Positions 2,917-58,065 of a stretch of DNA of 64,000 nucleotides are shown piece by piece; positions within the stretch are counted from its first letter, which is position 1, and the number at the start of each line of letters is the position of its first letter. Position numbers and translations under genes: made by a program. Under the pieces are notes generated by a model. It had not been told where the DNA came from, ran no database searches, and saw nothing but the letters and a program-made list of their open reading frames with translations. The stretch lies in NCBI GenBank assembly GCA_002280565.1, contig NCEF01000006.1:1-64000 (forward strand). Reading direction: 5' to 3'. Source of the DNA: Sphingomonas sp. 32-66-10 (lineage in GTDB: Bacteria > Pseudomonadota > Alphaproteobacteria > Sphingomonadales > Sphingomonadaceae).

Positions 2917-5628
2917 TTAGAAGCCGACCTTAGCCTTGACGCCAAAGAAGCGCGGCAGGCCCGGATAGGCGGCATAGTTGCCGGTCTGCTCCGGCACCGC
3001 AAAGCCGGTGATGTGGTAATATTGGTTGGTCAGGTTCTCGACGAAGAACTCCAGGCTCTTCTTGCCGTCATTCGTCTGCACGCCGACACGGGCACCCAGC
3101 AGCGCATAGCCCGGGTTGAACAGCGCGGTCCGACCGGTGGTCGGGTTCGGGTTATTCGACGGGATATTCACTTCACTGTTGTAGCGCATGTCGACATGCA
3201 CCAGCCCGCGGATGCCGCTGGTGATCTGCGGCGTCCAGGTCGTTGCGATCGTCACCGTGTGCTTGGGCTGGTTGCTGACCTGAAGGCCTTCCTGGCCCTG
3301 CAACGGCGTGCCGACGAAATTGTTGTCGGCATCATATTGCGCGTCGATATAGCTGTAGCCCATGCGGAAGGTGAGGTTGCGCACCGGCTGGATGATCGAT
3401 TCAACCTCGATGCCCTTGCTGGTCGTGCTGTCGACATTCTGGACGACAAAGTTGTTCCCGCTGAACACCAGCGACTGGAGATCGCTGAACTTCTGGTAGA
3501 AGCCGGCGATGTTGAGGGTGAAGGCGCGGCCCCACTGGGTCTTCACGCCGATTTCATAGGCATCGACCGATTCCGAACCGAACGCCAGGTCGCTGGCCTG
3601 CGGACCGTTGCCGCCGAGCAGAACGCTGTCGAACGTCGCCTGGTCCATATTGTAGCCGCCCGACTTGTAGCCGCGGTCATAGCCACCATAGACCAGGATG
3701 TCCGAATTGACCTTGTACGCCAGCTTGGCGGTGCCGGTGATCTTGCTCTCGTCCTGATCGTGCGCGTAGCTGCCGTTGAACTCGGAGTTGATCGCCGGGT
3801 TGCAGGCCAGCAGATAGAGGTTGTTGAACAGGCCGAGCTGGCGCAGCAGCGTGGCATATTGCACCGCCGCCGTGTTGCCCGCGCGCACCTGGTTGAAGAA
3901 GGTGCAGCTGCCGGTGTTGTTGCTGACGGTCGCGGTGAAGTCCTTCTTTTCGTAGTTCCAGCGCGCACCCAGCGTCAGCGACAGCTTGTCGCTGATGTTG
4001 ATGATGTTGTGCGTGAACAGCGCGAAGGCGTTGGTCTTGACGCGATAGTCGTTGTTGTTGCCCTGACCGGCGCTGACGCCGGGCAGCGGGCCGGCGGCGA
4101 GGGCGGCGAGACCGGCCACCGGCGCGCCTGAATAGCCGAGCGCGTTGCAGGTCGCGACCGGCACGGTGCCCGACGGCGCGGTTCCGGCGGCGGTGCGGAA
4201 GCAGCCGACCAGCGGTGCCAGCGACGCCCCATAAACCGCCTGATAGGCAGCGAGCGAGTTCGGCACCGCCGGGTTCAGCAGCACTGCGCCAGGCGTCGGA
4301 GCCGTACCAAGCGATCCGAAGAACTGCGTCGATCCGCCGAACGACGGGCCGGCCAGCGCGTTGAAGATCGAATCGACATAACGATTGCCGTCATTGCCGA
4401 CGCGGACGGTGTCGTGGACCTTGTTGGTTTCGTTGAGATAGAAGCCGCCGACGAGCCAGTCGAGCGCGCCGCCGAACGCCGAACCCTGGAAGCGCAGCTC
4501 CTGGGTGAAGTCGGTCAGCTCGTTGCGATAGCCGTCGCGATAGGCGCGGTCGATGCCCGAGAAGTCGACATCCTGGTTCCGCAGCGCGCGCCAGTCGCGA
4601 TAGGCGGTGATCGAGGTCAGCTTGATGTCGCCCAGCTCGGCGTTGATTTCCGCCGACAGGCCATAATCGCGCACCCGCTCGCTAAAGTCGCGATTGGGCG
4701 ATGCCGCCATGCGGCGCTGCTCGGGGTCGACCGTGGTCGGCACGCCGTTCACGGTGCGCTGCGTGCCGGTATACAGGCCGTCCAGGCCCTGCGCTCCGGC
4801 AATCCCCTCGATCAGCGGCGCGAACGCCCCGCGCACGACCGAAATCGCGCCACAGCATTGCTCGTCGGTCTCATAATAGTCGGCGATCAGGCGGAGCGAG
4901 AAGGTCGAGGTGTCGTACAGCGCCTGGCCGCGCGCATACCAGCGATCGACATTGTTGAACGCGCGGTCGGAATTGACGTCCTCGATATAGCCGTCGCGCT
5001 TGCGATAGCCGCCATCGAGGCGCAGCGCGAGCTGGTCGGTCACCGGGCCGGTCACCGCGCCCTTCAGCTCGAACGCGTTATAATTGCCGTAGCTGCCCTC
5101 GAGATAGCCGCCGAGCTCGAACGCCGGCTGGGCGGTGAAGATCGACAGCGCGCCGGCCGAGGTGTTGCGGCCGAACAGCGTGCCCTGCGGACCACGCAGC
5201 ACTTCGACGCGCTCAAGCTGGGGCAGCTCGGAGATGGCGACACCGGCACGCGCGCGGAACACGCCGTCGATGAACACGCCGACCGCTGGCTCGAAGCCGG
5301 GATTGTCGCCTGCGGTGGTGATGCCGCGGATATACAAAGTGGTGCCGGTCGCCGACGACTGGCCGGTCGAGCTCTGCAGCGACGGCGCGAGCTGCTCCAG
5401 CCCGCGAATATCTTCGATGCCCGCATTTTCGAGCAGCGCTGCCGGGACCGCGGTCACCGCGATCGGCACGTCCTGCACGGTTTCGTTACGGCGGGTCGCG
5501 GTGATCACGACCTCGTTGCCCGAAGCTTCTTCTTCCTGCGCGGCAGGGGCGGAGGCATCCTGGGCAATGGCGGGGGGGGCCGCGATCAGCGCGAGCGCGG
5601 ATGCGGAAAACAGCTGGAGTGTGCGCAT
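2917..5628 (-). CDS. TonB-dependent outer-membrane receptor
   Basis: 903 aa. The signal peptide is MRTLQLFSASALALIAAPPAIAQ. The TonB box region is NEVVITATRRNETVQDVPIAVTAV, written here in part: EVVITATRR, with the plug domain following (EDIRGLEQLAPSLQ, TLYIRGITT, FIDGVFRAR, LPQLERVEVLRGPQGTLFGRNTSAGA). The rest is a 22-strand-type barrel ending in aromatic residue F (VKAKVGF), as needed for BAM-dependent insertion. The substrate cannot be read from sequence. Sphingomonad receptors of this oar/iron-dicitrate-like subgroup often take up complex organic molecules rather than siderophores. A MerR-type palindrome about 90 bp upstream of the start (5720-5735) hints at shared control with acyl-CoA genes elsewhere in the window. 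Monocistronic, with its own terminator. Confidence 0.93.
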   Translation of the reverse strand: MRTLQLFSASALALIAAPPAIAQDASAPAAQEEEASGNEVVITATRRNETVQDVPIAVTAVPAALLENAGIEDIRGLEQLAPSLQSSTGQSSATGTTLYIRGITTAGDNPGFEPAVGVFIDGVFRARAGVAISELPQLERVEVLRGPQGTLFGRNTSAGALSIFTAQPAFELGGYLEGSYGNYNAFELKGAVTGPVTDQLALRLDGGYRKRDGYIEDVNSDRAFNNVDRWYARGQALYDTSTFSLRLIADYYETDEQCCGAISVVRGAFAPLIEGIAGAQGLDGLYTGTQRTVNGVPTTVDPEQRRMAASPNRDFSERVRDYGLSAEINAELGDIKLTSITAYRDWRALRNQDVDFSGIDRAYRDGYRNELTDFTQELRFQGSAFGGALDWLVGGFYLNETNKVHDTVRVGNDGNRYVDSIFNALAGPSFGGSTQFFGSLGTAPTPGAVLLNPAVPNSLAAYQAVYGASLAPLVGCFRTAAGTAPSGTVPVATCNALGYSGAPVAGLAALAAGPLPGVSAGQGNNNDYRVKTNAFALFTHNIINISDKLSLTLGARWNYEKKDFTATVSNNTGSCTFFNQVRAGNTAAVQYATLLRQLGLFNNLYLLACNPAINSEFNGSYAHDQDESKITGTAKLAYKVNSDILVYGGYDRGYKSGGYNMDQATFDSVLLGGNGPQASDLAFGSESVDAYEIGVKTQWGRAFTLNIAGFYQKFSDLQSLVFSGNNFVVQNVDSTTSKGIEVESIIQPVRNLTFRMGYSYIDAQYDADNNFVGTPLQGQEGLQVSNQPKHTVTIATTWTPQITSGIRGLVHVDMRYNSEVNIPSNNPNPTTGRTALFNPGYALLGARVGVQTNDGKKSLEFFVENLTNQYYHITGFAVPEQTGNYAAYPGLPRFFGVKAKVGF

Positions 5629-45273: not shown

Positions 45274-46571
45274 CAGCGGGTCTCGAAGCGGTTGCGGAGG
45301 TAGATGGCGATGGCGTTCATCGCGAGCAGGAAGATCAGCAGGACGATGATAGCGGCGCTCGTCTTCTCGACAAAGCCGCGGCTCACCTGGTCTGACCAGA
45401 GGAAGATCTGCACCGGCAGCACTGTCGCCGGATCGAACACGCCGCCCGGCGGCGTGACGATGAAGGCGCGCATACCGATCAGCAGCAACGGCGCCGTTTC
45501 ACCCAGCGCGCGGGCCATGCCGATGATCGTGCCGGTCAGGATGCCCGGCAACGCCAGCGGCAGGACGTGGTGGAACACCACCTGAATGCGGCTTGCGCCG
45601 ATGCCGAGCGCAGCGTCGCGGATCGACGGCGGCACCGCCTTGATCGCGTTGCGACCAGCGATGACGATCACCGGCATGATCATCAGCGCCAGCGTCAGCC
45701 CCCCGACCAGCGGCGCGGAACGCGGCAGGTGCAGAAAGTTGAGGAACACGGCGAGCCCGAGCAGGCCGAAGATGATCGACGGCACCGCCGCCAAATTGTT
45801 GATCGACACTTCAATAAGGTCGGTCCAGCGGTTCCGCGGCGCATATTCTTCCAGATAGACGGCGGAGCAGACGCCGATCGGGAAGGCGATCAGCAAGGTC
45901 ACCAGCATCGTCAGCAGCGAGCCCTTGAGCGCCCCCCAGATGCCGACCCCGGTCGGATCGGTGGCGTCGGAACCCATCAGGAAGTCGATGTTGAACCCCT
46001 GGGTCAGCGTCCCCTGATCGCGCAGCCGGGTCGCCACCTTGATCACTTCGGGGTCGCTGCCATCGCCCTTGGCGGCAAGCGCGATCGGCGACGAGGCGGG
46101 GACGTCGATCGACGCGCGCCCCTGCAACAACTCGGGCCGCGCCTTCAGTTCGTCGCGCACGGTGACCCATGCACTTTCGGAGATATAGTCGGCGCCCTCC
46201 GGGCCGAAGGCGGCGACGGCGGCATTGGCGACGACATCGTTCAGCCCCGCGCTGGCCAGCGCCAGATCGGCACCCTTGCCGCGCAGCTGTTCCGGCGTGA
46301 CCTCCAGTGCCGCAGCCTTGAAGTCGATCGGCAGTGCGATCTCGGCGCGCTGGAACCCGCCAATGCCCTGCCACAGCATCGTGACGAGCAGGAAGGCGAG
46401 GAAGCTCGCCGAGCCGACGACCGCCGCCAGCCCCCACATGCGGAAGCGACGTTCCTTGGCATAGCGGGCACGGATGCGCTTTTGCATCGCGTCGGTTTTC
46501 CAGCCGGTCGGGGCCGCGCGTGCGGGCTCTTCGTTACCGGTCGGCAGCTGCGGGATGAGGCTCTCACTCAT
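45270..46571 (-). CDS. pstA: Phosphate ABC transporter permease PstA
   Basis: 433 aa, longer than E. coli PstA because of an N-terminal DUF3333-like periplasmic extension (about residues 70-210) as in other alphaproteobacteria. The permease core has the EAA loop ([31 protein letters not shown]). It overlaps pstC by 8 bp. Confidence 0.94.
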
Positions 46572-47943
46572 AAGCTTCGCGATACTTTTTGACGACGCGC
46601 AGCGCGACGATGTTGAGGAGGAAGGTGATCATGAACAGCGTCAGGCCCAGCGCGAACGCGGCGAGGGTCTTGGGGCTGTCGAACGCGGTTTCGCCGGTCA
46701 GCAGGTCGACGATCTGCTTGGTCACGGTGGTCGCGCCATCGAACGGGTTAAGCGTGATGTTGGCAGCGCCCGATGCCGCCATCACCACGATCATCGTCTC
46801 GCCAATCGCGCGGCTGACCGCCAGCAGGATGCCGGCAACCACGCCCGGCAGTGCGGCGGGGATCAGCACGCGCTTGATCGTCTCGCTAGTCGTCGCGCCC
46901 ATGGCGAGCGACCCGTCGCGCATCGCGGTGGGAACCGCGGCGATCGAGTCATCGGCCATCGACGACACGAACGGGATGATCATGATGCCCATCACCAGAC
47001 CCGCCGAGAGCGCGCTTTCGGCCGAAGCGAACTGAAAGCCCAGCATTACGGCGAAATCGCGGATCAGCGGGCCGACGGTCAGCGCGGCGAAATAGCCGTA
47101 AACGACGGTCGGCACACCCGCCAGGATCTCAAGGATCGGCTTCATCCACGCGCGGAAGCTGCGCGGGGCATATTGGGTGAGGTAGATCGCGCTCATCAGG
47201 CCGAACGGGATCGCGATGATCATCGCAATGACGGCGCCGATGAAGAATGTGCCCCAGAACAGCGGCAGCGCGCCCAGATTTGCGCCGGGATCGTCGGCGC
47301 GGATGACCTGGGGGCTCCAGTTCAGTCCGAACAGGAAGTCGGTGATCGGCACGATCGAAAAGAAGCGCACGCTTTCAAAGATCAGCGACAGGAAGATGCC
47401 CAACGTCGTCAGGATCGCGATCAGCGACGCGACCAGCAACAGCATCATCACCGCCCGCTCGAACTTCGTCCGTGCGCGGAAATCCGGTTTGACCTTGGTG
47501 AAGGCGAAGGCGCCAAAGGCAAAGGCCAGGATCAGTGCCAGCGCGGTGCCGATCCAGTCATAGCGGTTCAGTGCGGCGGCATAGGCCGGCGCAAGCTGTT
47601 CGGCGAGGGGGTAGAAGGCGCCTTGGCTGCTGCCCTGTGCAAGGCTGCGCGCCTCGTTGAGGATCGTCTCCCGCTCGAACCCGAATGCCGGAAGCTGGGC
47701 GGCCGCCGGGGTGGAGAGCACCGTTTCGGTGACCAGCCCGGGGCTGATGTTGACCCAGAAGACCAGGAAGATCAGCGCCGGGACGACCGCCCAGGTCGCG
47801 ACATACCAACCGTGCTGACTCGGCAGGCTGTGCAGCCGCTTGGCGGGCAGCCCGCGAGCCATGCGCGCCGCACGCGCACGCGCCGTCAGCCAGCCAATCA
47901 GGCCCAGGCCGAGGATCAGGAACAGGAGTGCGAAAACATTCAC
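46564..47943 (-). CDS. pstC: Phosphate ABC transporter permease PstC
   Basis: 459 aa, long form with an N-terminal extension beyond the 300-residue core. The start is GTG. The EAA loop is MRDGSLAMGATTSETIKRVLIPAALPGVVAG. Segments LFGLNWSPQ and FGLMSAIYLTQYAP are typical of PstC. The N-terminal LTARARAARMARGLPAKRLHSLPSQ part lies outside the core. It begins 45 bp after pstS. Confidence 0.93.
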   Translation of the reverse strand: MNVFALLFLILGLGLIGWLTARARAARMARGLPAKRLHSLPSQHGWYVATWAVVPALIFLVFWVNISPGLVTETVLSTPAAAQLPAFGFERETILNEARSLAQGSSQGAFYPLAEQLAPAYAAALNRYDWIGTALALILAFAFGAFAFTKVKPDFRARTKFERAVMMLLLVASLIAILTTLGIFLSLIFESVRFFSIVPITDFLFGLNWSPQVIRADDPGANLGALPLFWGTFFIGAVIAMIIAIPFGLMSAIYLTQYAPRSFRAWMKPILEILAGVPTVVYGYFAALTVGPLIRDFAVMLGFQFASAESALSAGLVMGIMIIPFVSSMADDSIAAVPTAMRDGSLAMGATTSETIKRVLIPAALPGVVAGILLAVSRAIGETMIVVMAASGAANITLNPFDGATTVTKQIVDLLTGETAFDSPKTLAAFALGLTLFMITFLLNIVALRVVKKYREAYE

Positions 47944-47988
47944 CGGTCGAAGCCGCCTATCTGGGAACGATGTTGGTATCGGTTCGGA

Positions 47989-49020
47989 TTAATTCAGATC
48001 GCTGCGTTGCATCGTGAGGCCCTTGGCGATGGTATCGCTCGCCTTGCTGCGGTCCGCGTCAGACGAGGCGATCATGCCGCGCTTGGCCAGCGGACCCCCG
48101 GGCCCCCACATCCGGGTATATTGGGCCAGGAATTCATTGATCCCCGGCACCGCCTTCAGATGCTGTTTCTTGACATAGATGAACATGGCGCGCGCACCCG
48201 GATACTGGCCCGACGAGATCGCCGCATAGCTGGGCTCGACCCCGTTGACCGGCACGCCCTTAAGCCGCGATGCGTTTTCCTCAAGGTAGGAATAGCCGAA
48301 CACGCCAATGGCGTTGGGATTGGCGCTGAGCTTCTGGACGATCAGATTGTCGTTCTCGCCCGAATCGACATAGACGCCGTCCTCGCGCACCCGGGTGCAC
48401 AGCTCGGTCGCCTTGTCCTTGTCGGTCTTCTCGATTTCCTTGACCTGCGGATAAGCCTCTTCGCAGCCCGGATGCATGATCAGCTCGTGCAGTGAATCGC
48501 GCGTACCGCTGGTCGCCGGCGGACCCATCACCGAAATCGGCACCGCCGGCAGCGACGGGTTGATGTCCGACCACAGCTTCGACGTATTGGGTTGGCCCAT
48601 CGGACTTTCGGCGAGCGCGCGATACGCTTCGGCCAGCGTCAGCCGGATCTTGGGGCCATTGACCGATTCGGCAAAGGCGATGCCGTCCATGCCCACCTGA
48701 ACCTCGAGAATGCCGGTGACGCCATTGCGCTGACACAGGTCGAATTCCGACGCGGTCATCCGGCGCGACGCGTTGGTCATGTCGGGGTGCTGCGGGCCGA
48801 CGCCTGCGCAGAACAGCTTCATGCCGCCGCCGGTGCCGGTCGATTCGATCACCGGAGCCTTGAAGCTGCCCGAATTGACGAATTGTTCGGCGACCATGGT
48901 GGTGAAGGGGTAAACGGTTGAAGAACCGACGATCTTGATCTGATCGCGCGACGCCTGACCCCCGCCGCCACAGGCAGACAAGGTCAGCGCCGAAAGCGCG
49001 ATCAGCGAAAAACTGCGCAT
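47989..49020 (-). CDS. pstS: Phosphate-binding protein PstS
   Basis: 343 aa. The signal ends in lipobox LSAC (ALTLSACGGGG), so it is a lipoprotein form. Phosphate-binding motifs are KIVGSSTVYPFTTMVAEQF, STGTGGGMKLFCAG and ATSGTRDSLHEL. A GGGGGG ribosome site precedes the ATG. A candidate Pho box is about 80 bp upstream. It probably is the most expressed gene of the block in phosphate starvation. Confidence 0.94.
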   Translation of the reverse strand: MRSFSLIALSALTLSACGGGGQASRDQIKIVGSSTVYPFTTMVAEQFVNSGSFKAPVIESTGTGGGMKLFCAGVGPQHPDMTNASRRMTASEFDLCQRNGVTGILEVQVGMDGIAFAESVNGPKIRLTLAEAYRALAESPMGQPNTSKLWSDINPSLPAVPISVMGPPATSGTRDSLHELIMHPGCEEAYPQVKEIEKTDKDKATELCTRVREDGVYVDSGENDNLIVQKLSANPNAIGVFGYSYLEENASRLKGVPVNGVEPSYAAISSGQYPGARAMFIYVKKQHLKAVPGINEFLAQYTRMWGPGGPLAKRGMIASSDADRSKASDTIAKGLTMQRSDLN

Positions 49021-49097
49021 CGTGATTCCCCCCGGCCATCTTGCGAGTCGCGAAACGGGGGCCGGTCCCGCCCGCGCTGGCCGTCTGTTGCAGTTGC

Positions 49098-49115
49098 GTG
49101 ACGCTATGATGACAC
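49098..49115 (-). promoter_or_regulatory. Candidate Pho box before pstS
   Basis: Minus strand GTGTCATCATAGCGTCAC fits the Pho-box pattern of two CTGTCAT-type 7-mers 4 nt apart (GTGTCAT, CATA, GCGTCAC). It is about 78-95 bp upstream of the pstS start and overlaps the end of phoR. Confidence 0.62.
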
Positions 49116-50321
49116 GGCCCCCGGAATCGGCGCGACAGGCAGCAGAATAGTGACCGACGTACCCTGACCGACCACACTGGTGATGTCGAGACGACCGCGA
49201 TGCCGCTCGACGATATGCTTGACGATCGCCAGGCCGAGGCCGGTTCCGCCCGCCGCGCGGCTGCGGCTCGAATCGACCCGATAGAATCGCTCGGTCAGGC
49301 GCGGCAGGTGCTCGGGCGCAATGCCTTCGCTCTCGTCGCGCACGGTCAGGCGGACCATCGCCGAATCGGTCGCGTCGAGCGCAACGGTCACCGGCGTCCC
49401 GGCTCGGCCATATTTCATCGCATTGCCGATGATATTGTGCAGCAGCTGCGAGAGTTGCACCCGGTCGCCGCGCACGCCAGGCAGCGCCTCGACGCTCAGC
49501 GCGATGTCGGCGGCCCGCGCCGGAGCGAGGGAGGCCATCTCGTCGCGGACCTGCGCGAGCAGCGCAGCGAGATCGACGACATCGTCGGGCGCGCGATATT
49601 TCTCCGCCTCGATCCGCGACAGCGAGATGAGATCGTCAATCAGTCGCCGCATGCGCCGCGCCTCATTATCCATGACCTTGAGGAACCGCGCACGGGTTTC
49701 GGGATCGTCCGCGGCATCCTCGAGCGTCTCGATAAAGCCAAGGATCGAAGCGAGCGGGGTGCGCAGCTCATGGCTGGCATTGGCCACGAAATCGACCCGC
49801 ATCCGGTCCGCCGCATGCGCGCCGGTGCGATCGCTCAAATGGACGACCCGCGCCCCGCCGGGCAGCGCGCGCACGCGCATCTCCCAGCGTTGGTCGCGGG
49901 TCCCCAGACCCACCAGATGGATCGGGCCGCCCGGCGCGCCCTCGACCGGATTGAGCAGCCGTTCGGCGGCGGCCGGGTGCCGGATCGCAACGCGGACATC
50001 CTCGCCAAGAATATGCTCGCCGAGCAGCGCGCGCGCGGCGCGATTGGCCGCTTCAACCCGCTGCGCCTCGACCAGCAACATCGGTTCGAACACCGCCTCG
50101 ATCGCTTCGGCCACGCCGGCGGGGGCAGTGCTGACCGGGTCGGGGCCGGGGATTTCATGGGCCGGTTCTTCGGGCGGGGGCGAAGCGATCAGCGCCGCCA
50201 GCGTCGCGCCGACCAGTGCGATCCCGCTCGCCTGTGGTCCGGCGGTGATCCACGCGACGATCGCGGTGACGAGGACAGCGATCAGCGCGGCGAAGGTGCG
50301 GGGGTTGGTCAGGCTGGGCAT
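49104..50321 (-). CDS. phoR: Phosphate regulon sensor kinase
   Basis: 405 aa. One or two N-terminal membrane segments (FAALIAVLVTAIVAWITAG) are followed by a PAS-like region (FEPMLLVEAQRVEAANRAARALLGE), the H box NASHELRTPLASILGF, N box NIIGNAMKYG, G1-type DESEGIAPE and G2 GTGLGLAIVKHIVERH. Order phoR-pstS-pstC-pstA-pstB-phoU-phoB on one strand identifies it as PhoR. Its 3' end holds the Pho box of pstS. Confidence 0.95.
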   Translation of the reverse strand: MPSLTNPRTFAALIAVLVTAIVAWITAGPQASGIALVGATLAALIASPPPEEPAHEIPGPDPVSTAPAGVAEAIEAVFEPMLLVEAQRVEAANRAARALLGEHILGEDVRVAIRHPAAAERLLNPVEGAPGGPIHLVGLGTRDQRWEMRVRALPGGARVVHLSDRTGAHAADRMRVDFVANASHELRTPLASILGFIETLEDAADDPETRARFLKVMDNEARRMRRLIDDLISLSRIEAEKYRAPDDVVDLAALLAQVRDEMASLAPARAADIALSVEALPGVRGDRVQLSQLLHNIIGNAMKYGRAGTPVTVALDATDSAMVRLTVRDESEGIAPEHLPRLTERFYRVDSSRSRAAGGTGLGLAIVKHIVERHRGRLDITSVVGQGTSVTILLPVAPIPGAVSS

Positions 50322-50392
50322 GATTTCATGCCTAACCGATCAGGCGCGCGATTCACACTTGTGAAAGGCCATTGTGCGAGGGAAGAACGGAT

Positions 50393-50794
50393 ATGGCCGA
50401 CACGACGCCCCCCAAGGACGGATCGCCGAAACGCCCGAGCAGGCGCGCGCTGATGCTGGGTGCCGCAAGCGCATCGGCGATCGTGTCGATCAAGCCGGCG
50501 CTGGCCCAGACCGCCGGATCGGTGCTGAATTGCGAGATTCCGGTCCCCGATGCGGGACGCGCGGGCAATTATATCGCCGCCGATGGATCGTTGGTGCCGG
50601 CCGGGACGCAGGGCGCGTTTCCGCCGGCCGGACGAAATTTCAAGGGCGAAGAGGTCAAGCAGGCGCTGAACGGCGCGAACCTGCCCGGCACGACCTATGA
50701 ACAGAGCCGCGCCTATACCAACTATATCCGCCGGCTGCAGCGCGGCACGAGCGGCTTTACCTGTTTCGCATCGCTTCAGATGCCGCGCGGGTAA
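50393..50794 (+). CDS. Tat-signal small protein, possible substrate of the kinase cassette
   Basis: 133 aa from the ATG at 50393, preceded by GAGGGAAGAACGG. The N-terminus carries a twin-arginine signal (SRRALMLGAASASAIVSIKPALA; Arg17-Arg18), so the folded protein is likely exported. The mature part has only two Cys (47 and 124) and several Ser/Thr (GTTYEQSRAYTN, QRGTSGFTC). No family is recognised. It is the first gene of the unit with the PqqD-like, HprK-like and nucleotidyltransferase genes, 6 bp upstream of the PqqD-like one, so it is the natural candidate substrate. Confidence 0.72.
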   Translation: MADTTPPKDGSPKRPSRRALMLGAASASAIVSIKPALAQTAGSVLNCEIPVPDAGRAGNYIAADGSLVPAGTQGAFPPAGRNFKGEEVKQALNGANLPGTTYEQSRAYTNYIRRLQRGTSGFTCFASLQMPRG

Positions 50795-50800
50795 CGCCGC

Positions 50801-51067
50801 GTGATTCGGTATCGCGCCGCGCCCGCCGCGACGCTGCGGATCGAACCGCTCGATGCGCTGACGCTGATCTATCACCGTGCGTCGGGGATCACGCATCTGG
50901 TGGATTCGCCGGTGCCCGAGCTGATCGAGTTGCTGGCCGAGCCGTTGACGGTTGATCAGGCGCTGGCGGCGCTTAGCGAGCGGTTCGATCTGGTCGATCC
51001 TGACCGCGATGCACTCGCCGCGCGGATCGACGAGTTGGTCGCGTCCGGCCTGGTGGAGCGGCTGTGA
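50801..51067 (+). CDS. PqqD-like peptide-binding protein (HPr-rel-A type)
   Basis: 88 aa with a GTG start. The fold is that of PqqD: a beta-hairpin (LRIEPLDALTLIYHRASGITHLVDSP) and three helices (PELIELLAEPLTVDQALAAL, ALAARIDELVASGLVERL). PqqD-type domains bind leader peptides in RiPP pathways. This short version beside an HprK-like kinase matches the set annotated as HPr-rel-A. The stop overlaps the kinase start (TGATG). Confidence 0.82.
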   Translation: MIRYRAAPAATLRIEPLDALTLIYHRASGITHLVDSPVPELIELLAEPLTVDQALAALSERFDLVDPDRDALAARIDELVASGLVERL

Positions 51068-51930
51068 TGCGGCACGCGACCATGCTCCGCATCGGCCCGG
51101 TAGGGTTCCGAATCGGCAGCGACTGGCGCGTGCCGGTTGCTGCGCTGGACGATCTCTACCGCGACTATCCGCAGCCGCAGGACGGCATCCCCGATTTCAC
51201 CGTGCGGCTGTTCGCTGCGCGTCCGTGGCGGCGCTGGATCCGCCCTGCGGTGCATCTGGGCGGCGATTTCGTGATTCCGGAGGCCGCGCCGTTGCCGCTG
51301 GCACTGGGGGTGCTGGCGGCGGAAATGGCGATGAATTTGCAAATGGCGCTGGGGCAACGGCGCTATCTGCTGCTCCACGCCTCGGCGGTCGAGAAGGATG
51401 GTCGCGCACTGCTGATTACCGGGGAGAGCGGGGCGGGCAAGTCAACGCTCGCCGCATTGCTGATGGCGCGCGGGTGGCGGCTGATGGGCGATGAGTTCGC
51501 CCTGCTCGATCCGGCGACGGGGATGCTCCACGGCTTTCCGCGGCTGATCAGCCTGAAGAATGACGCAATCGGGGTGATGGAGTCAGCGCTGCGCGATGCG
51601 CGCTGGGGTCCGTTGCTCAAGGGCACGCCCAAGGGCGATATCCGCCACCTCGTCCCCGATGCCCGCGCGATTGCCGCGATGGATGCGCCTGCGCGGCCTG
51701 CCTTGATCCTGTTCCCCGCCTTTGGCCACGCCGTTGCCGAGCGGGCGGTGGAGCCGAGCGAGTGTTTCGTGCGGCTGACGCAAGCATCGACCAACTATGT
51801 CGCGCTGGGCGAGGCCGGGTTCGATGCGCTGACGGGACTGGTGCGCGGGGTGCCGGCGCGGGCGATCGACTATCCCGACACCGATGGCGCGATTGCGCTG
51901 GTCGAGCGACTCTGGGGGGAGCTGGGGTGA
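51067..51930 (+). CDS. HprK-related kinase A
   Basis: 287 aa from the ATG at 51067; a GTG at 51064 is an alternative. The P-loop GESGAGKST is at 119-127, preceded by LLLHASAVEKDGRALLI as in HPr kinase/phosphorylase. GDEFALLD (141-148) matches the acidic motif. No HPr substrate or PTS gene is nearby. HprK-like kinases that act on RiPP precursors (PadeK, ThcoK) are known to phosphorylate a Ser. The stop overlaps the next gene (GTGA). Confidence 0.88.
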   Translation: MRHATMLRIGPVGFRIGSDWRVPVAALDDLYRDYPQPQDGIPDFTVRLFAARPWRRWIRPAVHLGGDFVIPEAAPLPLALGVLAAEMAMNLQMALGQRRYLLLHASAVEKDGRALLITGESGAGKSTLAALLMARGWRLMGDEFALLDPATGMLHGFPRLISLKNDAIGVMESALRDARWGPLLKGTPKGDIRHLVPDARAIAAMDAPARPALILFPAFGHAVAERAVEPSECFVRLTQASTNYVALGEAGFDALTGLVRGVPARAIDYPDTDGAIALVERLWGELG

Positions 51931-52970
51931 GCGGCGCGCTGGTCGCCCGCGCGCTCCGCGACCCGGCGTCGGTGTTGACGCTGGATGCGGCAGGCTGGAC
52001 CGCTTTGCTATGCGCGGCGCGGGCGGAGACGCTGATCGGCAGCCTGGCGCACCGCGTCGAGGGGCTGGCAATCCCGGCAGCGGCGGCGCGGGTGCTGGCA
52101 GATGCGCGCGCGGCGGCGGAGCAGGGGCGGATGGCGGCGTTGTGGGAGGCGGACATGGCGCGGCGCGCACTCGCGCCTAGCGGCATGCCGGTTGTGCTGC
52201 TCAAGGGCACTGCGTTCGTCGCGAGTGGGCTTGCGGCGGGGCAGGGGCGGCAGATCGGCGATCTCGACATCCTCGTGCCGCGGGACCGGATCGACGAGGC
52301 CGAGGCGCTGCTGCTCGCTGCCGGATGGGAGTGGGTGAAGCCCGACCCCTATGACGACGCCTATTACCGCCGCTGGATGCACGAACTGCCGCCGCTGATC
52401 CACCGAGAGCGCGACCGGATGATCGACGTGCACCACACGATCCTGCCGCTGACGGCGCGACCCAGGCCCGACGCCGACATGCTGATCGCGCGCAGTGAGC
52501 CGCTCGAAAACGGACTGCGGGTGTTGGCCCCGGAAGATATTGTAATTCACGCTGCGGCGCATCTGATGGCCGATGGAGATTTGCAGGGGGGGCTACGCAA
52601 CCTTTGGGATATCGACCGGCTGTGCAGAGAGTTTGCCGAGCGGCAGGAGGGCTTCTATCTTTCGCTTTTTGAGGAAGCGCATTGCCATGGGCTGCTCCAC
52701 GCAGTCACGCGCGCGCTCCGCCTGTCGCATCAGCTGTTCGAGACACCGGTAGTCGGCTACATTGATCCGGTCCGCGTCGCCCTGAATCCGCGTCCGAGCG
52801 ATGCGCTGTTCCGCCATCGCCTGCTCGCCCGCGACGGCTGGGGCCAGCGCACCCGCAAGCTGACCGAATTCGCCTTCTACCTGCGCGGCCATTTCCTCCG
52901 CATGCCACCGCTCATGCTGGCGCGGCACCTGTGGACGAAGTGGCGGAAAGGCTATCGCCCAGCCGGATGA
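51927..52970 (+). CDS. Nucleotidyltransferase of the NTP_transf_5 type
   Basis: 347 aa with a GTG start overlapping the kinase stop. The active site is seen as LLKGTAF (91-97) and RQIGDLDILVPRD (108-120), with the Asp pair for metal. IDVHHTIL holds a likely third acidic residue. The C-terminal half is helical. In pseudomycoidin-type lasso clusters a nucleotidyltransferase follows an HprK-like kinase and helps decorate the phosphate. It overlaps the convergent gph gene by 59 bp. Confidence 0.85.
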   Translation: MSGALVARALRDPASVLTLDAAGWTALLCAARAETLIGSLAHRVEGLAIPAAAARVLADARAAAEQGRMAALWEADMARRALAPSGMPVVLLKGTAFVASGLAAGQGRQIGDLDILVPRDRIDEAEALLLAAGWEWVKPDPYDDAYYRRWMHELPPLIHRERDRMIDVHHTILPLTARPRPDADMLIARSEPLENGLRVLAPEDIVIHAAAHLMADGDLQGGLRNLWDIDRLCREFAERQEGFYLSLFEEAHCHGLLHAVTRALRLSHQLFETPVVGYIDPVRVALNPRPSDALFRHRLLARDGWGQRTRKLTEFAFYLRGHFLRMPPLMLARHLWTKWRKGYRPAG

Positions 52971-53625
52971 GCGTCGGCACCAGTTCGTCATAGCCGTCGA
53001 TCACCGCGTCCGCGCCGAGTTCCGCGACCGGCTGCATCAGGAACCCGAAGCTGACCGCCACGCTCGGGATGCCGGCATTCTTCGCGGCGAGGATGTCGTA
53101 GATCGAATCGCCGACAAACGCCGCGCGGCCGCCGCCACAGCGCGCGATCATCTCATGGATTGGCGCTGCAGAGGGCTTGGCATTGCCGCGCCCCATCGTG
53201 TCGCCGCCGATGACGCATGCAAAACGGTGGTCGATACCGACTTCGCGCACCAGCCGGGTTGCGAACCGCTCGAACTTGTTGGTGACGATGGCGAGTTTCA
53301 CCCCGCGCGCCGCGAGTTCGTCCAGCGCTTGGCTTAGCCCGGCGAAGGGCACTGTGCCGTGCGAGAGATTGTCGCCATAAAACTCCAGCAGCGCCGGATA
53401 GGCCCGACGCATGACGTCTTCGTCATAGCCGCCCGATTCCTCCAGCCCCTGTTTGAGCATATTCTTTGCCCCGCCGCCGATCATCGTCCTGATCCGGTCG
53501 GGCGCGAGGGTCGGGCGGCCCACCAGCGCGAGCGCATGATTGGTTGCGGCGAGCAGGTCGGCGCTGGTGTCGAGCAGCGTGCCGTCGAGGTCAAACCCGA
53601 CGATATCGAACGGAAAATCGGTCAT
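52912..53625 (-). CDS. gph: Phosphoglycolate phosphatase-like HAD hydrolase
   Basis: 237 aa from MTDFPFDIVGFDLDGTLLD. HAD motif I is DLDGTLLD, motif II is VTNKFERF, the Lys is in NAKPSAAPI, and motif III is FVGDSIYDILAA. It removes phosphate from phosphoglycolate formed in DNA repair. The 3' end overlaps the nucleotidyltransferase gene on the other strand. Confidence 0.9.
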   Translation of the reverse strand: MTDFPFDIVGFDLDGTLLDTSADLLAATNHALALVGRPTLAPDRIRTMIGGGAKNMLKQGLEESGGYDEDVMRRAYPALLEFYGDNLSHGTVPFAGLSQALDELAARGVKLAIVTNKFERFATRLVREVGIDHRFACVIGGDTMGRGNAKPSAAPIHEMIARCGGGRAAFVGDSIYDILAAKNAGIPSVAVSFGFLMQPVAELGADAVIDGYDELVPTLIRLGDSLSATSSTGAAPA

Positions 53626-53702
53626 CGCGCCAAATGCCTGCGCCGCTATGGAAATTGCAACATGATCGTGGCAGTGCGCCCGGCAAGGGGAGCTATCGAC
53701 CA

Positions 53703-55055
53703 ATGACCAAGCCGATCGCCGCGATCATCCTTGCCGCCGGAAGCGGGACGCGGATGAAGTCCGATACCCACAAGGTGCTGCATCATATCGCAGGCAAGCC
53801 GATGCTCTTGCATCTGACCGATGCCTTTGCGGCGGCGGGCGCGGCGGAGAAGGTGGTGGTGGTCGGCGCGCGGCGTGAACAGGTCGAGGCGGCGGTCGCA
53901 CCGCTCGGCGTCAAGATCGCGCATCAGGCCGAGCAACTCGGCACCGCGCACGCCGCACTGATGGCGCGCGAATCGCTGGCGGGATTTGACGGAACCGTCA
54001 TCGTTGCATTCGGTGACACACCCTTCCTGTCGGCACAGACGATTGCGGCGATGGCAGCGCGGCTCGACGCGGCGGATGCGCCGCGCGTCGCGGTGCTCGG
54101 CTTCCGCCCCGACGATGCCAAGGCCTATGGCCGGATCATCGCCGATGCCGATGGCGCGATTGCCAAGATGGTCGAGTATAAGGACGCGACCCCCGAGGAG
54201 CGCGCGGTCGATCTGTGCAATTCGGGCGTAACGGCCGTGCGCGCCGCCGATTTGTGGCCGCTGCTCGACCGGGTCGGCAACGACAATGCGGCGGGCGAAT
54301 ATTACCTCCCCGACATCGTCATGCTCGCGCTGGCCGATGGCGACCGCGCGGTGGTGGTCGAAACCGATGCCGACGAGGTGATCGGGATCAACAGCCGCGC
54401 CGAACTCGCCTATGCCGAGGATCGCTGGCAGGCGGCACGGCGGGCGCAGGCGATGGCCAATGGCGCGACGCTGATTGCGCCCGAAACCGTGTGGTTCGCG
54501 CACGACACCCTTCTGGGCCGCGACGTGATAGTGGAGCCCAATGTGGTGTTCGGCCCCGGCGTGACCGTCGCGGACGGAGTCACCATCCGCGCTTTCTGTC
54601 ATATCGAGGGCGCGACGATTGCGACCGGCGCCGAAGTCGGCCCCTATGCCCGGCTGCGCCCCGGCACGGTGCTGGGCGAAAAGAGCAAGGTCGGCAATTT
54701 CGTCGAGACGAAGAAGGCCGTGCTGGGCAAGGGCGCCAAGGCCAATCACCTCACCTATCTGGGCGATGCACAGGTGGGGGAGGGCGCCAATATCGGCGCG
54801 GGCACGATCACCTGCAACTATGACGGCTTCTTCAAATATCCGACCGTGATCGGGGCGGGGGCGTTCGTCGGGTCGAACAGCGCTTTGGTTGCTCCGGTCA
54901 GCATCGGCGACGGTGCAATCGTCGGCGCGGGCAGCGTGGTGACCAAGGATGTCGAAGCCGACGCGCTCGCGCTGGTTCGCCCGGAACAGACCGGCCTGCC
55001 TGGCTGGGCGAAGCGGTTCCGCGCGGCGATGACGGCACGAAAGGCGCCGAAATGA
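53703..55055 (+). CDS. glmU: Bifunctional GlmU, UDP-N-acetylglucosamine synthesis
   Basis: 450 aa. The N-terminal uridyltransferase has LAAGSGTRMKS and GDTPFLSA. The C-terminal left-handed beta-helix carries acetyltransferase repeats (GVTIRAFCHIEGATIATGAEVGPYARLRPG, in part) and GAGTITCNYDGFFKYPT. It is divergent from gph and lies upstream of a TA pair and glmS, so amino-sugar genes cluster here. Confidence 0.96.
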   Translation: MTKPIAAIILAAGSGTRMKSDTHKVLHHIAGKPMLLHLTDAFAAAGAAEKVVVVGARREQVEAAVAPLGVKIAHQAEQLGTAHAALMARESLAGFDGTVIVAFGDTPFLSAQTIAAMAARLDAADAPRVAVLGFRPDDAKAYGRIIADADGAIAKMVEYKDATPEERAVDLCNSGVTAVRAADLWPLLDRVGNDNAAGEYYLPDIVMLALADGDRAVVVETDADEVIGINSRAELAYAEDRWQAARRAQAMANGATLIAPETVWFAHDTLLGRDVIVEPNVVFGPGVTVADGVTIRAFCHIEGATIATGAEVGPYARLRPGTVLGEKSKVGNFVETKKAVLGKGAKANHLTYLGDAQVGEGANIGAGTITCNYDGFFKYPTVIGAGAFVGSNSALVAPVSIGDGAIVGAGSVVTKDVEADALALVRPEQTGLPGWAKRFRAAMTARKAPK

Positions 55056-55363
55056 GCGATATCTATGAAGGCAAGCCGTTCCTGAAGCTGCTCGACGCCT
55101 ATGTCCTCGACGCCATCGGCGCGCTCGATGCCGACAGTGATGCGGCGCTCAAAGCACAGGAGCCGACGTTCCACGCCCTGTTCGGTGCGACCGGCGACTG
55201 GCGCAGCATCGTTGTTCAGCGGATGCAGTTTCCCGAAGGCATGGCGGGCGCAATCAATGAGGTGTGGACGAAGGGGCGCGCCAGATTCATCGCCGCGCAG
55301 GGGCATGAGCCGGATCCGGTCGAATTCGTGCGGAACTTCGTCGATAGCAAGTTCCCGCATTGA
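55052..55363 (+). CDS. Hypothetical protein coupled to glmU
   Basis: 103 aa; ATG overlaps the glmU stop (ATGA). It is soluble and acidic-helical (FLKLLDAYVLDAIGALDADSDAALKAQEP, GDWRSIVVQRMQFPEGMAGAINEVWTKG). No family is recognised. Coupling suggests it is made together with GlmU. Confidence 0.75.
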   Translation: MSDIYEGKPFLKLLDAYVLDAIGALDADSDAALKAQEPTFHALFGATGDWRSIVVQRMQFPEGMAGAINEVWTKGRARFIAAQGHEPDPVEFVRNFVDSKFPH

Positions 55364-55364
55364 C

Positions 55365-55394
55365 ATGATATCATGATATGATATCAATATATCA
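55365..55394. promoter_or_regulatory. Operator repeats before the RHH antitoxin gene
   Basis: Two TGATATCA palindromes (55366-55373, 55379-55386), 13 bp apart, plus a related ATATATCA, end right at the ATG (55395). This is an AT-rich island in GC-rich DNA, as expected for an RHH autorepressor site. Confidence 0.75.
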
Positions 55395-55757
55395 ATGACC
55401 CGCATCCTTGCCGATCTGCCCGATGAGGACATCAAGTGGCTTGACCAGCGTGCTGCCGAGTTGGGCAAGTCGCGCGCGTCGGTGCTGCGTGAAGCCGTCG
55501 CAGCCTACAAGGCCGAGGCGCCGAAGGACTGGCTGGAAATCGGGTTCGGCGCGTGGAAGGATCGCGACGATATCAGCGACGCGGTTGAGTGGCAGCGACG
55601 CGAGCGCGCTTCATCTACCCGTCCGTGGGACGATGACTATGAAGAGGTCAGGGCCGAGTTCCCCGACCTCTTCGACGCGGAAGATGATCGTCAGCGCCAA
55701 ATCTATCTCGACATGAGCAAGGGGCACTACCCCGATCCGAAGAAGCCCGCCAAGTGA
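55395..55757 (+). CDS. Ribbon-helix-helix antitoxin
   Basis: 120 aa. The N-terminus is an RHH domain: TRILADLPDEDIKWLDQRAAELGKSRASVLREAVAAY. The long acidic C-terminus (WDDDYEEVRAEFPDLFDAED) probably neutralises the PIN toxin. Overlap with the toxin gene (ATGA-type, 4 bp) and the upstream operator support a TA unit. No ribosome site is visible before the start. Confidence 0.85.
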   Translation: MTRILADLPDEDIKWLDQRAAELGKSRASVLREAVAAYKAEAPKDWLEIGFGAWKDRDDISDAVEWQRRERASSTRPWDDDYEEVRAEFPDLFDAEDDRQRQIYLDMSKGHYPDPKKPAK

Positions 55758-56134
55758 GCGGCTTCGCGTTCGATTCCAATATCCTGATCGACGCGCTCAA
55801 GGGGCTGGAGCCTGCGCGCGACGAACTGCGCCGCGCGACGTCGGGCGGCGCGCGCGCGTGGATCAGCCGCATGGTGTGGATCGAAGTGCTGTCCAAGGGA
55901 TCGGGGGAGGGCCTCCGCCGCGCTGAAATTTTGCTGTCGGGCTTTGGCATCGACGAAATGGACGTTGAGATCGCGACCCGCGCCGCCAGTCTGCGTCGAG
56001 AGCGTCAGCGTTTGCGTTCGCCCGATGCGGTCATCCTCGCCACCGCGATGCTGCGCGGTCGCGTTCTCGTTACCCGCAACACAAAGGATTTTCCGGCTAA
56101 CATGCCGGGGATCCGTGTCCCCTATACCCTCTAG
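55754..56134 (+). CDS. PIN-domain toxin, VapC type
   Basis: 126 aa with a GTG start overlapping the antitoxin stop. PIN acidic residues: Asp in FAFDSNILIDAL, Glu in VWIEVLSK, and Asp in RSPDAVILATA with a late Asp in NTKDFP. These proteins cut tRNA or other RNA. It ends 17 bp before glmS. Confidence 0.87.
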   Translation: MSGFAFDSNILIDALKGLEPARDELRRATSGGARAWISRMVWIEVLSKGSGEGLRRAEILLSGFGIDEMDVEIATRAASLRRERQRLRSPDAVILATAMLRGRVLVTRNTKDFPANMPGIRVPYTL

Positions 56135-56151
56135 AGTCGAGAGCAGACCCC

Positions 56152-57975
56152 ATGTGTGGAATCGTTGGAATCCTGGGCAATGACGCTGTTGCCGACCGGC
56201 TGCTCGACGGCCTGAAGCGGCTTGAATATCGCGGCTATGACTCGGCGGGGATCGCGACCATCGTCGATGGCCGCATCGCCCGCCGTCGCGCATCGGGCAA
56301 GCTGGTCAACCTTGGCAAGGTGCTGGCCGAGGATCCGCTGCCCGGCACTGTCGGCATCGCGCATACCCGCTGGGCCACCCATGGCGGCCCGACCACCAAC
56401 AACGCCCATCCGCACGCGACGGGCGAGGTCGCGTTGGTCCACAACGGGATCATCGAGAATTTCAAGCCGCTGCGCGAAGAACTGCTGGCGCGCGGCCGCG
56501 TGTTCGAGAGTGAGACCGATACCGAAATCGTCGCGCATTTGGTGAGCGAGCAGGTTGAGGCGGGTCTCGATCCGGTCGCGGCGGTCAAGGCGGTGCTCCC
56601 GCGCCTGCACGGTGCCTTCGCGCTGGCCATCCTGTTCCGCAGCCATCCCGACATGCTGATCGGCGCGCGGCTCGGTTCGCCGCTCGTGGTCGGCTATGGC
56701 GAGCGTGAGACCTATCTCGGCTCCGACGCGCTCGCCCTCGCCCCGCTGACCCAGCGCATCTCGTATCTGGAGGAAGGCGACTGGGTCGTCCTCACCCGCG
56801 ACGGCACGCAGGTTTATGACGTCGAGAACAACCCGGTCGAGCGCCCGATCGTCAATTCGGGCGCATCGGGCCAGCTGATCGACAAGGGCAATCACCGCCA
56901 CTTCATGGCGAAGGAAATCTACGAACAGCCGATCGTCGTCGCCCAGACGCTGCGCGGTTACCTGCAGCGGCTCGAGGAAAAGGTGACGCTGCCGATCCCC
57001 GAGTTCGACCTGTCGGCGATCCGCCGCGTCACCATCGTCGCATGCGGCACCAGCTACTACGCCGGGATGGTCGCCAAATACTGGTTCGAGCAGTTTGCGC
57101 GCGTCGCGGTCGATATCGATGTGGCATCCGAGTTCCGCTACCGCGCGCCGGTTATGGAGCCGGGCGGCCTGATGATCGTCATCAGCCAGTCGGGCGAGAC
57201 CGCCGACACGCTCGCCGCGCTGCGCCACGCCAAGGCGGAAGGCCAGACGATCGCCGCCGTGGTCAACGTGCCGACCAGCACGATGGCGCGTGAGGCTGAC
57301 CTGCTGCTCCCCACCCATGCCGGGCCGGAGATCGGCGTTGCATCGACCAAGGCGTTCACCTGCCAGCTCGCGGTCCTCGCCGCGCTCGCCGCCAACCTCG
57401 CCAAGGCGAAGGGGCGGATGACGCCGGAGGAGGAAAAGGAAATCGTCCTCCACCTCGCCGAAGCCCCCGCCGCGCTCAACGATGCGCTCAGCCGCGACGA
57501 GGCGATCGAGGCGATGGCCGGCAGCGTCGCCGGCGCGCGCGACGTGCTCTATCTTGGCCGTGGCACCGACTATCCGCTGGCGATGGAAGGGGCGCTGAAG
57601 CTCAAGGAAATCAGCTATATCCATGCCGAAGGCTATGCCGCGGGCGAGATGAAGCACGGGCCCATCGCGCTGATCGACGAAAATGTCCCCGTCATCGTCA
57701 TCGCGCCGAGCGGGCCGCTGTTCGAAAAGACCGTCAGCAACATGCAGGAAGTGCAGGCGCGCGGCGGCAAGGTCGTGCTGATCTCTGACGCGGAAGGCAT
57801 TGCTGCAGCGGGCGACAATTGTCTCGCGACGATCGAGATGCCCCGCGTCCACCCGCTGATCGCACCGATCGTCTATGCGGTGCCGGTGCAGCTGCTGGCA
57901 TACCATGTGGCGGTGGCCAAGGGGACGGATGTGGACCAGCCGCGCAACCTCGCCAAGTCGGTCACGGTGGAGTGA
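56152..57975 (+). CDS. glmS: Glutamine-fructose-6-phosphate aminotransferase
   Basis: 607 aa. Catalytic Cys2 in MCGIVGILGND; glutaminase motifs HTRWATHGGP and HNGIIENF; the SIS domains show ACGTSYYAG and SQSGETADTLAAL; C-terminal NLAKSVTVE. It makes glucosamine-6-phosphate for peptidoglycan and LPS. No glmS ribozyme is seen before it, as expected outside Firmicutes. Confidence 0.97.
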   Translation: MCGIVGILGNDAVADRLLDGLKRLEYRGYDSAGIATIVDGRIARRRASGKLVNLGKVLAEDPLPGTVGIAHTRWATHGGPTTNNAHPHATGEVALVHNGIIENFKPLREELLARGRVFESETDTEIVAHLVSEQVEAGLDPVAAVKAVLPRLHGAFALAILFRSHPDMLIGARLGSPLVVGYGERETYLGSDALALAPLTQRISYLEEGDWVVLTRDGTQVYDVENNPVERPIVNSGASGQLIDKGNHRHFMAKEIYEQPIVVAQTLRGYLQRLEEKVTLPIPEFDLSAIRRVTIVACGTSYYAGMVAKYWFEQFARVAVDIDVASEFRYRAPVMEPGGLMIVISQSGETADTLAALRHAKAEGQTIAAVVNVPTSTMAREADLLLPTHAGPEIGVASTKAFTCQLAVLAALAANLAKAKGRMTPEEEKEIVLHLAEAPAALNDALSRDEAIEAMAGSVAGARDVLYLGRGTDYPLAMEGALKLKEISYIHAEGYAAGEMKHGPIALIDENVPVIVIAPSGPLFEKTVSNMQEVQARGGKVVLISDAEGIAAAGDNCLATIEMPRVHPLIAPIVYAVPVQLLAYHVAVAKGTDVDQPRNLAKSVTVE

Positions 57976-57991
57976 AGATGTAGCGAGTAGC

Positions 57992-58065
57992 TGGAGCGGG
58001 TGAAGGGAATCGAACCCTCGTCGTGAGCTTGGGAAGCTCCTGCTCTACCATTGAGCTACACCCGC
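57992..58065 (-). tRNA. tRNA-Gly (CCC)
   Basis: The minus strand folds with acceptor GCGGGTG/CACCCGC, D arm GCTC-AATGGTA-GAGC, anticodon loop TTCCCAA (anticodon CCC) and T arm GAGGG-TTCGATT-CCCTT (one G-T pair). The CCA end is encoded (57992-57994). Confidence 0.95.

Follow-up and report, generated by a model that had tools for sequence, protein, structure and literature searches.

A stretch of 64,000 nucleotides from Sphingomonas sp. 32-66-10 (contig NCEF01000006.1, positions 1 to 64,000; the window) holds a four-gene cassette in which a small protein with a signal for twin-arginine translocation (Tat), labeled P0001 here, precedes a PqqD-like protein, a kinase related to the HPr kinase HprK, and a nucleotidyltransferase-fold enzyme. 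Our comparisons make P0001 the likely substrate of this kinase of the HPr-rel-A type. We consider it probable that the cassette unites a substrate with its dedicated modification enzymes, i.e., that it is a Tat-coupled protein phospho-tailoring system resembling the pathways of ribosomally synthesized and post-translationally modified peptides (RiPPs), and a cousin of the linear polyphosphorylated peptide (LPP) and paeninodin systems. This reading is based on sequence, namely the cassette itself, the co-occurrence of its genes, a Ser motif, intact catalytic motifs and a Tat-type signal recognized by eye. The kind of enzyme is already known, and the kinase and PqqD-like protein already form a named system whose substrate had no name in the sources searched; new is the Tat-coupled version, whose proposed target is hypervariable except for a single conserved Ser motif. 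The features are as follows.

50393–50794, forward strand: P0001, proposed substrate, Tat-signal protein (133 residues; R17-R18, C47, C124, T123-C-F-A-S127)
50759–50773, forward strand: codons of T123-C124-F125-A126-S127, the last Ser being the proposed phospho-acceptor
50801–51067, forward strand: PqqD-like protein, TIGR04353, presumed leader-recognition element (88 residues, GTG start, 6-bp gap after the P0001 gene)
51067–51930, forward strand: HprK-related kinase A, TIGR04352 (287 residues, GESGAGKST, 1-bp overlap with the stop of the PqqD-like gene)
51927–52970, forward strand: NTP_transf_5 nucleotidyltransferase-fold enzyme, PF14907 (347 residues, GTG start, 4-bp overlap with the kinase gene)

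All four coupled open reading frames (ORFs) reported in a first-pass annotation of this DNA were found again, and the cassette is real, tightly packed and conserved. The family labels given there to the last three genes agree with profile scores above cut-off: 50.7 bits for the PqqD-like protein against TIGR04353 ("HPr-rel-A system PqqD family peptide chaperone"; cut-off 35), 237 bits for the kinase against TIGR04352 ("HprK-related kinase A"; cut-off 200) and 171 bits for the fourth gene against PF14907 NTP_transf_5 (cut-off 31.2). Against Pfam PqqD the second protein scores 17.2, below the cut-off of 23.4, and the kinase gene has an alternative in-frame GTG start upstream at 51064. P0001 matches no family in Pfam or NCBIfam. 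Judged by substitution rates against the related locus L034, its gene is coding and constrained, comparable to the kinase gene (nonsynonymous rate dN 0.031, synonymous rate dS 0.55 and dN/dS ~0.06 for P0001; dN 0.044, dS 0.58 and dN/dS ~0.08 for the kinase). The host assembly comprises 2.68 Mb in 83 contigs and is 83% complete. Among 72,556 plasmid records searched, the only match is a Sphingomonas parapaucimobilis replicon, with 57.7% identity for the kinase and 54.0% for the small protein; in the annotated S. parapaucimobilis relative the four genes are called, in order, hypothetical protein, HPr-rel-A system PqqD family peptide chaperone, HprK-related kinase A and nucleotidyltransferase family protein.

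The independent test of linkage is a single-sequence search with P0001 in 61 genomes, i.e., 37 of the same genus (its own included) and 24 from other families of the order. P0001 as sole query found matches in 29 of the 61, one place each, and the kinase lies directly downstream in all 29 loci, the own locus included. Both the PqqD-like and the NTP_transf_5 gene were recovered by tblastn in 28 of them and missed in L061, where only 1.5 kb extends past the match. Within the genus, small protein and kinase occur together in 28 genomes of 37 and are both absent from 9, although these genomes are related and the 37 are thus not independent trials. Of 297 genomes sampled from the order, 118 have a kinase-family match above cut-off, as against none of 14 control genomes. 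From the 118, 60 loci were picked by hand and non-randomly, and a hidden Markov model (HMM) search located the small protein in 57 of these. The 57 include two loci in which it lies at a distance (L075, ~4 kb; L092, 1.6 kb) and one with a weak match at the end of a contig (L105, E 1.4e-5). This figure arises partly by construction, because the 55 proteins behind the HMM came from these loci themselves and include a few pieces of out-of-frame junk (e.g., L075_3447, L110_3426). The small proteins of the fetched other-family loci were found by position and motif.

The three kinase loci without a small protein (G045, G214, G218) come from genomes that each carry one copy elsewhere (E 3.0e-9, 1.1e-56 and 3.2e-54, respectively). 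The G214 copy adjoins a phoR-like gene and the G045 copy a phoR-like and a PqqD-like gene; in a fourth unlinked case, G097, the small protein lies at 2.93 Mb and the kinase at 3.61 Mb of one contig. A phoR-like neighbor is typical of the small protein's place in the order. The most economical interpretation is that the small protein stayed and the kinase was relocated. Chance placement of the cassette genes is disfavored by the co-occurrence and by the downstream kinase in the genomes examined.

The association extends through the phylum. TIGR04352 exceeds its cut-off in 51 of 397 phylum genomes, 15 of the 51 being from the order, and again in none of the 14 controls. A scan of named genomes covered the best 80 of at least 586 relative-encoding stretches (595 stretches), and these 80 loci include relatives in Magnetococcales, Methylococcaceae, Chromatiaceae, Oxalobacteraceae, Gallionellaceae, an Acidobacteria bin, Malonomonas and others; five (L154, L165, L182, L184, L199) repeat proteins of the phylum set. 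Beyond Pseudomonadota there are single cases, an Acidobacteriota bin and a Thermodesulfobacteriota genome. A Tat-signal protein is present at 27 of 30 phylum kinase loci outside the order and at 73 of the 76 named loci that were judged, by eye and not blind, after L160, L175, L213 and L217 (<800 bp upstream) had been left out. It is encoded upstream on the same strand in 68 of the 76, divergently in one (L156), downstream in three (L186, L209, L226) and split between frames in one (L190). Searched against Pfam and NCBIfam at E 0.01, ten of these Tat proteins, of several kinds, had no match. An NTP_transf_5-like gene accompanies the kinase at 57/57 order loci and 62/63 named loci. Together with the 57 of 60 order loci, the small protein thus stands beside most other kinase/PqqD pairs, the point on which the first-pass annotation had staked its substrate idea. 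Of the two targets proposed there, the Tat-exported protein is upheld as far as genomic co-occurrence and linkage reach, and a distant peptide has become unneeded.

The small proteins share one short element. A set of 145 proteins was reduced to 89 representatives with <50% identity. In assembling the 145, Arg/Pro-rich ORFs and three named junk ORFs were dropped, as were, in the two distant sets, ORFs lying >620 bp away from where the kinase begins; the signal pattern used missed the true protein in ~13 of 60 order loci, for the most part close relatives of P0001. Past the signal, the sequences are highly divergent and about 56–222 residues long. Unsupervised expectation maximization (EM) for one motif of width 8 returned x-x-[S/T]-[C/G/A]-hydrophobic-x-S (Ser 0.95, Cys 0.72) with a log-likelihood of 406.3, compared with 117.7, 118.2 and 122.8 in three shuffled sets. 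By pattern matching, the C-terminal form occurs in 55 of 89 representatives (500 shuffles: mean 2.2, maximum 8) and the N-terminal form S-[GA]-x-x-S in 25 (shuffled mean 7.1, maximum 15), which yields 55 C-terminal, 23 N-terminal and 11 unassigned proteins; an earlier, cruder count gave 107/146 (shuffled mean 17.4, maximum 29). Within the last 60 residues, Ser comes next in 53 of the 68 occurrences of [ST][CA]-hydrophobic-x. In P0001 the element is T123-C-F-A-S127, and S127, C124, S43 and C47 are invariant in 38/38 aligned rows (one gene is present twice in this set, as L061 and L085).

The Cys that, in the most frequent form of the motif, precedes the Ser by three positions (the 0.72 above), and the two invariant Cys of P0001, would also suit a kinase that activates the Ser for elimination, with addition of the conserved Cys to give a lanthionine-like crosslink. 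We regard this as very improbable, however, as the Cys gives way to Ala or Gly in other motif classes while the Ser is kept, and no lyase-like gene was recognized in the cassette. The same exchange makes the Ser the better candidate for the residue acted upon.

Five of the loci carry side variations of the small-protein gene. In L065 (3465–4873) and L118 (reverse, 3015–4604), two tandem small Tat proteins with the same motif precede a single kinase, an arrangement that would fit two substrates sharing one set of enzymes. L186 and L209 also have two Tat proteins in tandem, similar to the N-terminal-motif class, but placed ~2.0 and 2.8 kb, respectively, after the kinase start. In an endosymbiont (L190, 4736–5642) the gene occupies two frames, a signal part and a C-terminal ...TGSCWTSLNPNVP part, and is therefore broken or mis-sequenced.

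Furthermore, the position of the motif follows the kinase phylogeny. When the three motif classes are mapped onto a maximum-likelihood tree (84 kinases), 8 changes suffice, compared with a shuffled mean of 30.1 and 0/200 shuffles as low. All 23 N-terminal-motif systems fall into one supported clade of 26, whose other three members are unclassified and none C-terminal, and which mixes Oxalobacteraceae, Sphaerotilaceae, Chromatiaceae, Malonomonas and the Acidobacteria bin. Kinases with C-terminal motifs from Sphaerotilaceae (L170, L216), Sedimenticola (L215) and Chromatiaceae (L219) are placed outside it. Sphaerotilaceae, Chromatiaceae and Sedimenticolaceae are each spread over more than one kinase clade, with motif class as the dividing line, and in these few families the class tracks the kinase and not the taxon. 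Shuffling among unrelated neighbors would not explain this congruence.

Several points weigh against P0001-like proteins as the kinase substrates. Joint inheritance or transfer of the operon could give much of the tree congruence. The P0001 query matches only 1 of the 24 other-family genomes, 12 of which have a kinase over cut-off, and six kinase loci (L135, L136, L140, L157, L198, L200) were found without a Tat protein. Eleven of the 89 representatives belong to neither motif class; a motif is missing from L158 and fits L181 only loosely. The looser pattern [STA][CAG]xxS, present in 82/89, is also met in 44.8/89 after shuffling. The EM set was self-assembled and its shuffled counterparts received fewer restarts and rounds, and the pattern forms were composed after inspection of the sequences. 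Finally, the structure model of P0001 is poor (mean predicted local distance difference test score, pLDDT, 67) and matched no fold, and the search for an informative fold was abandoned with this weak, matchless model.

The catalytic motifs of the kinase, i.e., the Walker A motif, the His and the Asp-Glu pair, are intact in the alignment, and H101, G119, G121, K122, T124, D139 and E140 (numbering of the L123 kinase) are invariant in 25/25 sequences; we take the catalytic roles of the conserved His and Asp to be those described for HprK. The best profile match among solved structures is the HPr kinase 1jb1, a weak one (E 0.0027), in which the His, Walker A and Asp regions align. A role as housekeeping HPr kinase was considered and rejected, for the cassette kinase scores 28 bits against the HPr kinase family (cut-off 240) and a separate Hpr_kinase_C gene in the genome, over its Pfam cut-off, fits better.

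The presence of this truer HPr kinase also speaks against the proposal that the enzymes modify a glycan, a lipid or an HPr-like protein, the Tat protein being a co-regulated periplasmic carrier or assembly partner. Such a role gains some appeal from the surroundings, since the Sphingomonas cassette adjoins glmU and glmS and, among 63 distant named loci, 13 have a polysaccharide-export-type and 12 a chain-length-type protein (named from sequence); a tie to cell-surface glycans is a conjecture on these grounds. A separate partner protein would not, however, need a single conserved Ser motif placed according to kinase clade, and the PqqD-like protein belongs to a family that NCBI calls a peptide chaperone. 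We consider this alternative improbable and retain the Tat protein as the likely substrate.

In the NTP_transf_5 enzyme, a DxD motif and a third Asp (D112, D114, D167) are invariant in 23/23 aligned sequences, D167 presumably serving as the third carboxylate. Its model (pLDDT 91) finds its best PDB matches in MenT1 and ANT(2'')-Ia (E 1.5e-3 to 5.5e-3, none <0.001; probability 1.00), with far weaker matches to FKRP (E 0.74–1.1). This nucleotidyltransferase-like fold, together with the invariant Asp residues, would be compatible with transfer of AMP or another nucleotide after phosphorylation, giving a nucleotidylated and not a sugar-decorated protein. The precedents point elsewhere. In the parts of the two reports drawn on here and below, PsmN is required for hexoses on phospho-Ser, a nucleotide step not being excluded (PMC9266682), and deletion of LppN was without effect in a foreign host (PMC13381572). 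Nucleotidylation as the end product is therefore possible but rather unlikely in our view.

P0001 has an N-terminal signal with the twin-Arg stretch SRRALMLGAASA..., an h-region uncharged by eye and an AxA-type cleavage region, and was called Tat-type by eye; R17, A36 and A38 are invariant in 38/38 rows, the Arg pair being shifted by one in some relatives, and the host genome has a TatC gene. With the Tat protein as substrate, the PqqD-like protein would probably bind the N-terminal leader, which is the Tat signal, and present P0001 in the cytoplasm; HprK-related kinase A would then phosphorylate the motif Ser (Ser127), the NTP_transf_5 enzyme would probably attach a nucleotide- or sugar-derived group to the Ser phosphate, and modified P0001 would exit via Tat, with cleavage of the leader by signal peptidase. 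Cytoplasmic phosphorylation of the motif Ser, possible further decoration and Tat export are suggested by analogy to the known systems, and it is from the comparisons above that we infer the substrate, the phosphorylation site, the order of steps, the second modification and export. Tat carries folded proteins and the kinase requires cytoplasmic ATP, so that modification before export is a sensible order.

As a tentative generalization, plausible but short of probable, the Pseudomonadota systems with HprK-related kinase A, along with the single Acidobacteriota and Thermodesulfobacteriota cases, may constitute one RiPP-like pathway in which the Tat signal doubles as leader. Ahead of Tat export, a hexose or nucleotide would be attached through phosphate to one Ser of S-[C/A/G]-hydrophobic-x-S in otherwise hypervariable proteins, giving phosphodiester-decorated surface or periplasmic proteins, possibly linked to exopolysaccharide.

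LPP of Bacillota (lppA-K-B-S-D-N), a non-lasso system, is the closest one worked out, to judge from the parts of its description used here: LppK phosphorylates Ser3 of the LppA precursor but not Thr or Tyr variants, and the deletion of LppN in a foreign host caused no change (PMC13381572). It has in common with our cassette a discrete RiPP recognition element (RRE), an HprK-like kinase, an uncharacterized NTP transferase and a non-lasso precursor, and LPP systems are described within polysaccharide loci (PMC13381572); the RRE of the cassette is presumed from its TIGR04353 match. Further components of LPP are an MsbA-like transporter and a SipW-like signal peptidase, and its leader carries the motif YxxPxVLxHQ (PMC13381572), whereas the cassette has a Tat signal as leader and a different motif. 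Neither a SipW-like peptidase nor an MsbA-like transporter was read in the flanks, with no profile search aimed at them, and the LPP precursor motif YxxPxVLxHQxIxFETxxS is not seen by eye in P0001. The words Proteobacteria, Pseudomonadota, Sphingomon and Gram-negative are absent from the main text of the LPP paper (PMC13381572).

Paeninodin and pseudomycoidin share with the cassette an HprK-like kinase for a precursor Ser and a homologous NTP transferase; in the passages concerned, the C-terminal Ser of pseudomycoidin receives a phosphate from PsmK, and the addition of one or two hexoses to that Ser requires PsmN (PMC9266682). The cassette differs in its larger Tat protein as substrate. In agreement with the first-pass annotation, lasso cyclase and protease were absent by eye from the ORFs of 46000–58000 and from the annotated relative, no profile search having been aimed at them, and a reading as lasso cluster was set aside on this ground. 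A literature search of one open-access collection for the HPr-rel-A names, HprK with PqqD and twin-arginine, and HprK with exosortase found nothing.

For HPr-rel-A (TIGR04352/TIGR04353), both of whose curated cut-offs are exceeded here, NCBIfam gives names without a substrate, and the present proposal assigns to this named enzyme system a substrate that is specific and open to testing, with one residue of its Ser motif as predicted acceptor. If true, many bacteria would tag one conserved Ser of a small protein before folded export, and RiPP-style recognition, by RRE, kinase and nucleotidyltransferase, would be joined to Tat export of larger proteins. It would also offer another route to the group that NTP_transf_5 enzymes place on phospho-Ser, a question left open by the work on LPP and pseudomycoidin.

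The Sphingomonas cassette is flanked by genes read as phoR-pst and gph-glmU-glmS, and upstream it is bordered by two features.

49104–50321, reverse strand: phoR-like histidine kinase, divergent neighbor (named by eye and from the annotated pst neighbors of the relative)
50322–50392, forward strand: divergent intergenic region of 71 bp, presumed to contain the cassette promoter

Across the 57 order loci, neighbors named by eye from cluster representatives and the annotated relative are phoR-like (47), glmU (43), HAD hydrolase (41), pstS (38) and glmS (36). Control by PhoB on phosphate starvation, an idea suggested by the phoR-pst neighbors, was dropped, as no Pho box was recognized by eye in 50322–50392. 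Of 28 upstream regions, only 2 match the repeat TTCACA-CT-TGTGAA that precedes the P0001 gene; the start was misplaced for some of the 28 (L051, L055). By eye, a TT-A--ATTGTGAAAGG-like stretch ~40 bp upstream of the small gene recurs in loci of the genus; it is not a strict palindrome and may be part of the promoter.

At the other end, the NTP_transf_5 gene overlaps a convergent HAD hydrolase gene by ~59 bp (52912–52970; 41 bp in the S. parapaucimobilis relative). Two overlapping small ORFs in the glmU/glmS interval (55395–56134) resemble by eye a ribbon-helix-helix antitoxin and a PIN-domain toxin. The genome has further, weaker HprK-like genes on contigs C70 (L233, 1069–2010, reverse strand) and C6 (L234, 1156–2115, forward strand); by eye both adjoin sulfotransferase-like genes, and the one on C6 also an asparagine-synthetase-like gene. 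These loci are probably lasso-type tailoring clusters separate from the cassette.

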